DNA of 41,037 nt from an uncultured beta proteobacterium (GTDB lineage Bacteria > Pseudomonadota > Gammaproteobacteria > Burkholderiales > Burkholderiaceae_C). The DNA lies in contig CAIYDK010000278.1 in the NCBI GenBank assembly GCA_903924955.1, positions 1 through 41,037 on the forward strand, in the 5' to 3' direction. The notes under the pieces are model-generated. The model did not search any database and was not told the origin of the DNA. It saw nothing but the letters and a program-made list of their open reading frames with translations. Below are positions 34,020 to 34,684 of the stretch, piece after piece; the stretch's first letter is position 1, and each line of letters begins with the position of its first letter. A program made the position numbers and the translations under genes.

Positions 34020-34046
34020 TCAAGTTCAACCGTTTCCCGTCGATAA
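34020..34046 (+). promoter_or_regulatory. Sigma-28 (FliA) type promoter of the yjfB unit
   Basis: TCAAGTTC (34020-34027), an 11-nt spacer, then GTCGATAA (34039-34046). The flagellar sigma-28 consensus is TAAAGTTT-N11-GCCGATAA; the match is six of eight in the first box, seven of eight in the second, with the exact spacing. Transcription would begin about 28 nt before the yjfB ATG. Confidence 0.75.
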
Positions 34047-34081: not shown

Positions 34082-34282
34082 ATGAACATTACCAGTATGT
34101 CTTCGGTACAGGCAGCGGCATCTGCCGCTCAGAGTGATACTGCCGACAGCGTGAACATTTTGGTGTTGAAAAAGGCTCTGGATATGCAGGCCACCACAGC
34201 GATGACATTATTACAAACGCTGCCTCAACCGCCCTTGGCGACCATTGGTTCAGTCGGGACAAAAGTGAATACATTTGCTTGA
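34082..34282 (+). CDS. YjfB-family putative motility protein
   Basis: A 66-aa protein matching the YjfB_motility family: VNILVLKKALDMQATTAMTL in the middle (family pattern VLKKALDxQAxxALxLLQ) and LPQPPLATIGSVGTKVNTFA at the end (family pattern LPQPP...GxxVNTFA). It has no signal peptide or helix long enough for a membrane. Its exact role in motility is unknown, and the family name comes from genomic links to flagellar genes. It stands behind a strong sigma-28-type promoter and 36 nt before the next gene. The ATG at 34082 has only a weak AGAAAG ribosome site. Confidence 0.85.
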   Translation: MNITSMSSVQAAASAAQSDTADSVNILVLKKALDMQATTAMTLLQTLPQPPLATIGSVGTKVNTFA

Positions 34283-34318: not shown

Positions 34319-34684
34319 ATGAACATTGAATTTCCACTGGCTGCAAAAGTGCGTTTCACGCAAAAGCGTTTGTCCATTTTGACACCGCGCGATAGGCAAG
34401 GTTTAGCGGGGCGCATTGGCATCACGCAAACGGATAGCTCTGTCGTTAGCAAACCAACGGTTTATTTTCCGGCGGATGGCCCCAATCTTGAAATTCGTCT
34501 GTTTCGAGTAGACCCGAGCCACCTTGAACTGGTTGAGCTTCCACCCCATACCGAAATTGCGTCCAGCCTCAACGAAAGTGACACGCACTTTGACGCTCAT
34601 CGCCCTGCTGAGGTCGACGCCACTGTTTCTGCTGATAGCGGCGGCCGTCTTTCCCAGAATGAAATGGACAATTTATTTGATTGA
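34319..34684 (+). CDS. Unknown 121-aa protein ending in a FliM-like CheY-binding peptide
   Basis: I do not recognise the main body: FPLAAKVRFTQKRLSILTPR, RQGLAGRIGITQT, KPTVYFPADGPNLEIRLF and RVDPSHLELVELP suggest a small beta-barrel (SH3- or KOW-like) fold of about 85 residues. Then comes a polar stretch rich in Asp, Glu, Ser and Ala (about 86-108) that looks disordered. The last residues are LSQNEMDNLFD. This is close to the N-terminal peptide of the flagellar switch protein FliM (LSQAEIDALL), which binds phosphorylated CheY. The gene follows yjfB by 36 nt and is probably read from the same sigma-28-type promoter. There is no signal peptide. A link to the flagellar switch is inference. Confidence 0.72.
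   Translation: MNIEFPLAAKVRFTQKRLSILTPRDRQGLAGRIGITQTDSSVVSKPTVYFPADGPNLEIRLFRVDPSHLELVELPPHTEIASSLNESDTHFDAHRPAEVDATVSADSGGRLSQNEMDNLFD

Follow-up and report, generated by a model that had tools for sequence, protein, structure and literature searches.

Described CheY ligands and the gene of the window

The motif LSQxEIDxLL has been described as the CheY-binding motif of FliM and as widely conserved, and in Caulobacter the replacement of its Ile/Asp pair was stated to abolish reversals, in the portion of the report cited here (PMC5677366). In CheZ, the main affinity for CheY-P was assigned by the cited excerpt to a short helix at the C-terminus, joined by a flexible tether (PMC1447658), and one common face of CheY is said, in the corresponding part of another source, to serve both CheZ and FliM (PMC3774744). 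Accessory proteins that act where CheY meets FliM, or on proteins of chemotaxis and of the rotor, have also been described, namely Cle of Caulobacter and CheO of Campylobacter (PMC5677366, PMC9665402, in the parts cited). They would resemble the protein reported here in this respect and differ from it in others, as the Cle proteins belong to the CheY-like receivers and bind the switch (PMC5677366) and CheO was found to pull down CheA, CheZ, FliM and FliY, not CheY (PMC9665402); the passages cited mention a FliM-like tail in neither of them.

The window, that is the whole stretch of 41,037 nt that was analysed, was found to contain the following features around an open reading frame (ORF) for a protein of 121 aa with the C-terminus LSQNEMDNLFD.

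34020..34046, forward strand: sigma-28-type promoter-like site (-35 element at 34020-34027, -10 element at 34039-34046), matching the consensus at 13/16 letters
34082..34282, forward strand: yjfB-like gene of 66 aa, matching PF14070 (YjfB_motility) with E 1.3e-9, above the cut-off
34319..34684, forward strand: the 121-aa ORF, stop included, aligned with its relatives as 26 members
34343..34537, forward strand: N-terminal domain, residues 9-73, predicted to be SH3-like (pLDDT about 90, five short strands)
34538..34648, forward strand: acidic linker, residues 74-110, predicted to be disordered (pLDDT below 50 at residues 78-107)
34649..34681, forward strand: FliM-like tail LSQNEMDNLFD, residues 111-121, conserved in the 26 members and resembling FliM by profile

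The first-pass annotation had described this tail behind an acidic linker, and the reading of the ORF confirmed it, the net charge of the 37-residue linker of the window protein being -5 with His left out. The same annotation had stated that no protein of this design was described, which did not hold, since a C-terminal CheY-binding helix on a flexible tether is attributed to CheZ in the cited part of PMC1447658. An earlier description of such a protein was not found by title in one open-licence library, among the matches listed, and the protein family appears to be undescribed, with a docking peptide that is of a known kind.

A protein search of 61 genomes returned seven carriers of the gene, the own genome included, all belonging to the own genus and all containing FliM (7/7). 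Profile searches of even draws matched 2 of 299 genomes in the family, 1 of 399 in the order and 1 of 369 in the class, the sole match in the order draw and in the class draw being the own genome. In the own genus, 13 of 103 genomes were matched by the profile and 12 were retained after G030, a marginal homologue matched at E 9.3e-4 over no more than profile positions 8-40, was left out of the counts, and a second genus of the same family was found to carry the gene in 14 of 89 genomes. The alignment (A3) contained these 26 members (12/103 and 14/89 genomes of the two genera), the window included. The spread may be wider than found, because the in-depth searches were confined to these two genera.

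Domain, linker and tail of the 26 members

The structure model of the window protein was built from the 26 sequences, a model from eight sequences being less confident, and a short helix was predicted within the tail at residues 113-117. The mean pairwise identity among the 26 members was 68% in the tail and 65% in the domain, followed by 22% in the linker, which was barely alignable, varied in length from 18 to 44 residues and was net acidic in 26 of 26 members. The comparison of tail and linker conservation had been proposed in the first-pass annotation as a check on its claim, and the tail was found to be kept by all 26 members while the linker diverged, which argues that the tail is more than a chance sequence. 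The uncorrected pN/pS values, from 44 close and non-independent pairs, were 0.13 in the tail, 0.21 in the domain and 0.67 in the linker.

The tail contained L (25) or M (1) at its first position followed by the presence of S (26) at the second, Q (25) or P (1) at the third, a variable fourth position and D (19) or E (7) at the fifth. The sixth position was occupied by L (11), M (8), T (4), A (2) or I (1), and the seventh by D in all 26; N (19) or other residues were present at the eighth, L (16), F (9) or M (1) at the ninth, F in all 26 at the tenth and D (16), G (9) or N (1) at the eleventh. The change of Q to P was found in one member (L002), which ends in LSPNDIDNLFD. The full motif occurred in 0 of 20,000 shuffles of the window protein, and a chance origin of the tail was ruled out by its conservation across the 26 members.

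The N-terminal domain was found to have only weak structural matches, with 0 Foldseek matches at E of 0.001 or below and best E values of 0.05 and 0.11; the top chains were NdhS, the nitrile hydratase beta subunit, NusG/Spt5 and ribosomal proteins. A weak sequence match of the protein to photosystem I subunit IV (which we take to be PsaE) had an E of 0.44. The likeness to the small SH3-like domains of NdhS, PsaE, the NusG/Spt5 KOW domain and nitrile hydratase beta consists in a predicted five-stranded, barrel-like domain, whereas the difference consists in the lack of a significant fold match and of any Pfam match at E of 10 or below for the window protein.

Neither Pfam nor NCBIfam models matched the window protein (0 matches at E of 10 or below). 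The FliM core domain (PF02154) was found in none of the 26 members at E of 1 or below, the CheZ domain (PF04344) gave no match in the window protein or in the 26 members, and the FQD motif of CheZ was present in 0 of 26, so that membership of the FliM or CheZ family was ruled out by domain content. A lone weak match to FlbD in Pfam (E 0.0044, one of 26 members) was treated as chance. A non-coding ORF was ruled out by the pN/pS values of the domain and the tail given above. The comparison with PHROGs returned nothing better than E 0.014, and 84 pattern stretches were examined in viral contigs with 0 confirmed as relatives; a phage or plasmid origin was rejected with no match among phages or plasmids and no relative in viral contigs. 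The beta-clamp-binding motif is of the Q-x-x-L-F type, and a beta-clamp-binding tail was considered given the ORFs next door in the window, which were named by sight as presumably recB/recD-like, and was rejected with the pattern in 0 of 26 members.

The tail compared with the FliM peptide and CheZ

The FliM of the own genome was found to start with MSESFLSQEEVDALLEG, which includes LSQEEVDALL. At the positions of the FliM motif, S, D and F were conserved in 26 of the 26 tails, L and Q in 25, and the Glu position contained D or E in all 26; the strict pattern L-S-Q-x-[DE]-[ILVM]-D-x-[LFM]-[LF] was fitted by 18. The Ile position contained L, M or I in 20 tails, T in four and A in two, and T or A at this position is the strongest objection from the sequence to a canonical FliM-like fit. 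The likeness is contained in L-S-Q-x-[DE]-x-D-x-[LF]-hydrophobic at a chain end with a flexible connection. The differences are the N-terminal place of the FliM peptide against the C-terminal place of the tail, the missing FliM core domain, the preference for D over E (19 to 7) and the invariant F against the L of FliM. The terminal CheY-binding peptide feature of FliM was in this way present in relaxed form, at the opposite chain end.

Twenty of the 26 tails, and no FliM, went into a tail profile. On this profile, 15 of 17 FliM N-terminal 30-mers (12 of 14 when only distinct ones are counted) scored 9.5-13.6 bits, and the remaining two scored 4.5 and 3.1 bits. The 480 C-termini of non-members from the fetched loci reached a maximum of 5.8 bits, and 4200 shuffled FliM peptides reached 6.6 bits at the 99.9th percentile and 12.6 bits at the maximum. 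These figures belong to the 17 N-termini taken unfiltered, a motif-filtered selection (13 of 17) having given a highest shuffle of 9.5 bits. The FliM N-termini scored lower when placed in stretches of 110 aa, with 6.6-10.0 bits for 15 of them and -0.2 and 1.1 bits for two.

When searched against six whole genomes, the tail profile recovered the gene in each, and FliM was not returned at E of 10 or below. Four further matches at E 0.97-3.3 were chance-like, one of them being LSQNDFDHLL inside an unrelated protein. The motif alone is therefore not diagnostic, and the weight lies on its conservation at the chain end.

Such similar 10-mers inside unrelated proteins could suggest that the protein has no link to CheY, the domain being an SH3/KOW-like nucleic-acid or protein-binding domain and the tail being FliM-like by convergence. 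The weak fold matches to the SH3-like domains of NusG/Spt5, NdhS and nitrile hydratase (E 0.05 or worse) and the many loci without a chemotaxis neighbour are consistent with this explanation. It is considered rather unlikely, as the similar 10-mers are internal and not known as conserved chain ends, the profile ranked 15 of 17 FliM N-termini above each of the 480 non-member C-termini, all 26 carriers contain CheZ, and the beta-clamp-type pattern as well as the FQD of CheZ are absent from 26 of 26 members.

The likeness to CheZ (PDB 1kmi; E. coli tail SQDQVDDLLDSLGF) consists in a peptide at the C-terminus, behind an unstructured tether, with the pattern Q-x-[DQ]-V-D-D-L-L; the CheZ tails of the carriers are exemplified by LKQDDVDDLLASLGF. 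The protein differs from CheZ in having no CheZ domain, no FQD motif and no terminal ASLGF, and in its predicted SH3-like fold. The CheZ tails scored at most 5.9 bits on the tail profile, within the shuffle range, so that the likeness to CheZ lies in layout and a few positions. The protein joins a FliM-like sequence to the layout of CheZ on an unrelated domain.

A CheZ match was found in 26 of 26 carriers against 116 of 192 genomes overall, that is in 12 of 12 carriers against 58 of 103 genomes in the own genus and in 14 of 14 against 58 of 89 in the second genus; two of the carrier matches (G1106 and G1215) were partial. The hypergeometric p of this association, with kinship ignored, was 5.8e-4 in the own genus and 1.3e-3 in the second genus. 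In the second genus it rose with the minimum genome size, to 0.015 for 3.5 Mb or more, 0.13 for 3.8 Mb or more and 0.23 for 4.0 Mb or more, kinship again being ignored, and the association of the gene with CheZ fades once genome size is controlled. The proposal of a flagellar regulon in the first-pass annotation gained from the presence of CheZ in all carriers and lost from the weakening of this signal with genome-size control.

On the sequence evidence, the protein is tentatively proposed to be a soluble CheY-docking adaptor or sink of flagellar chemotaxis, a reading that we hold plausible short of probable. The tail LSQx[DE]xDx[LF]F would fold to a short helix on activated CheY or a CheY paralogue, and the face of CheY occupied by it would be the one used by the N-terminal peptide of FliM and the C-terminal peptide of CheZ. 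The variable acidic linker would serve as the tether and the SH3-like domain would hold a second partner. The occupation or relocation of CheY-P would then leave a smaller, or reshaped, CheY-P pool for the motor. The first-pass annotation had suggested that the protein could compete with FliM or dock on the switch.

The wider notion of an undescribed class of CheY-P adaptors, in which an SH3-like domain, an acidic linker and a FliM-type peptide make a soluble decoy of the receptor that the motor has for CheY-P and link CheY-P to a new partner, is put forward with a little more reserve. If it is true, it would be a third use of this type of peptide in flagellated bacteria, after FliM and CheZ. 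With a tail that binds CheY-P, these bacteria would possess, besides CheZ and the motor, a soluble protein dedicated to the chemotaxis messenger as competitor or adaptor, and the SH3-like domain would point to a further input or target. The natural variation of the 26 tails, which have T, A, M, L or I at the critical position, offers a ready series for learning which parts of the FliM motif are important.

The FliM proteins of the own genus were found in two classes. Class 1, with the Pfam match from position 1, was present in 22 genomes, of which 22 contained CheZ, and class 2, with the match from about position 14, was the only class in 13 genomes, of which 0 contained CheZ. Both classes were present in G008 and G031.

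Upstream elements and gene neighbourhoods

The sigma-28-type site was found to contain TCAAGTTC-N11-GTCGATAA upstream of yjfB, followed by a gap of 36 nt between the stop of yjfB and the start of the 121-aa gene. Its score was counted on a 16-letter sigma-28 consensus, and 0 of 200 shuffles of the upstream 320 nt reached the same score. A 13/16 site together with yjfB was found upstream in three of 26 loci, namely the window, L064 and L065, with both genera represented; the yjfB orthologues in the same place were 80% (L065) and 79% (L064) identical. In the other 23 loci the sites scored 8-11/16 in 22 and 12/16 at -205 in one (L074), and yjfB was not found near these members by tblastn within 1.5 kb.

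The consensus match supports the assignment of the genes of the window, L064 and L065 to the sigma-28 flagellar regulon. The placement of the gene after yjfB and behind a sigma-28-type promoter, given in the first-pass annotation, stood in the window with the 13/16 site and the PF14070 match. The flagellar regulon that it proposed was supported in these three loci and, by a che-cluster location, in one further genome; the sigma-28/yjfB pair was absent from 23 of 26 loci.

The sigma-28/yjfB context of three loci is consistent with a regulator that docks on the C-ring, its tail binding FliN, FliG or FliM of the switch or else a different structural protein of the flagellum instead of CheY, and docking on the switch had been the second option of the first-pass annotation. 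The closest described peptide is a CheY ligand in the cited part of PMC5677366, and no result here indicates a C-ring partner, so that a C-ring target is judged quite improbable.

The element GATGCGATAC was found upstream of the gene in eight of 26 loci of both genera, starting 38-60 nt before the gene. It was exact in L004, L005, L006, L009, L059 and L066 and matched at 9/10 letters in L067 and L072. It is possibly another promoter.

The 23 loci without yjfB contained the gene in many different surroundings, and no chemotaxis neighbour was evident at many loci among the ORFs listed. The neighbour in G013 (L040) was a chemoreceptor. In G031 (L038) the gene was located between a hemerythrin gene and a gene for a CheY-like regulator, followed by the presence of cheB and cheD (Pfam), with fliM about 12 kb away; the ORFs that come next in this locus were named by sight as presumably cheR-, cheW-, cheA- and cheY-like. 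The recurrence of hemerythrin genes beside the gene at several loci seems to reflect shared synteny and not independent events, and for this reason no enrichment statistic is claimed.

The gene directly downstream in G031 encodes a single-domain response regulator and precedes cheB, which would fit a tail that docks on another receiver (a single-domain response regulator, CheB or a hybrid protein), the protein then being an adaptor of another two-component branch. The relaxed Ile position, with T or A in six of 26 tails, might suit a different groove, and neither FliM nor CheZ is related to the N-terminal domain. Of the FliM motif, L, S, Q, D/E and D are nevertheless retained, the 26 carriers are all CheZ genomes, and the response-regulator neighbour was found in one locus; another receiver as the target is regarded as unlikely.

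An ending G-[ST]-[VL]-D-L-F was found to be common to the CheD of L038 (L038:4854-5564, reverse strand) and to ORFs of L012 and L038 that were named by sight as presumably FliK-like.

The same locus was found to contain a 147-aa protein (L038:9642-10085, reverse strand) with no Pfam match, located between cheA/cheY-like and flagellar genes. It contains LQFQDMASQ, comparable with FQDLTGQ of CheZ, followed by the ending TQDEMDAGSIELF. In the scans with the tail profile, where it scored 6.7 and 5.7 bits, it ranked as one of the two best non-members. It is possibly a divergent CheZ-like phosphatase.
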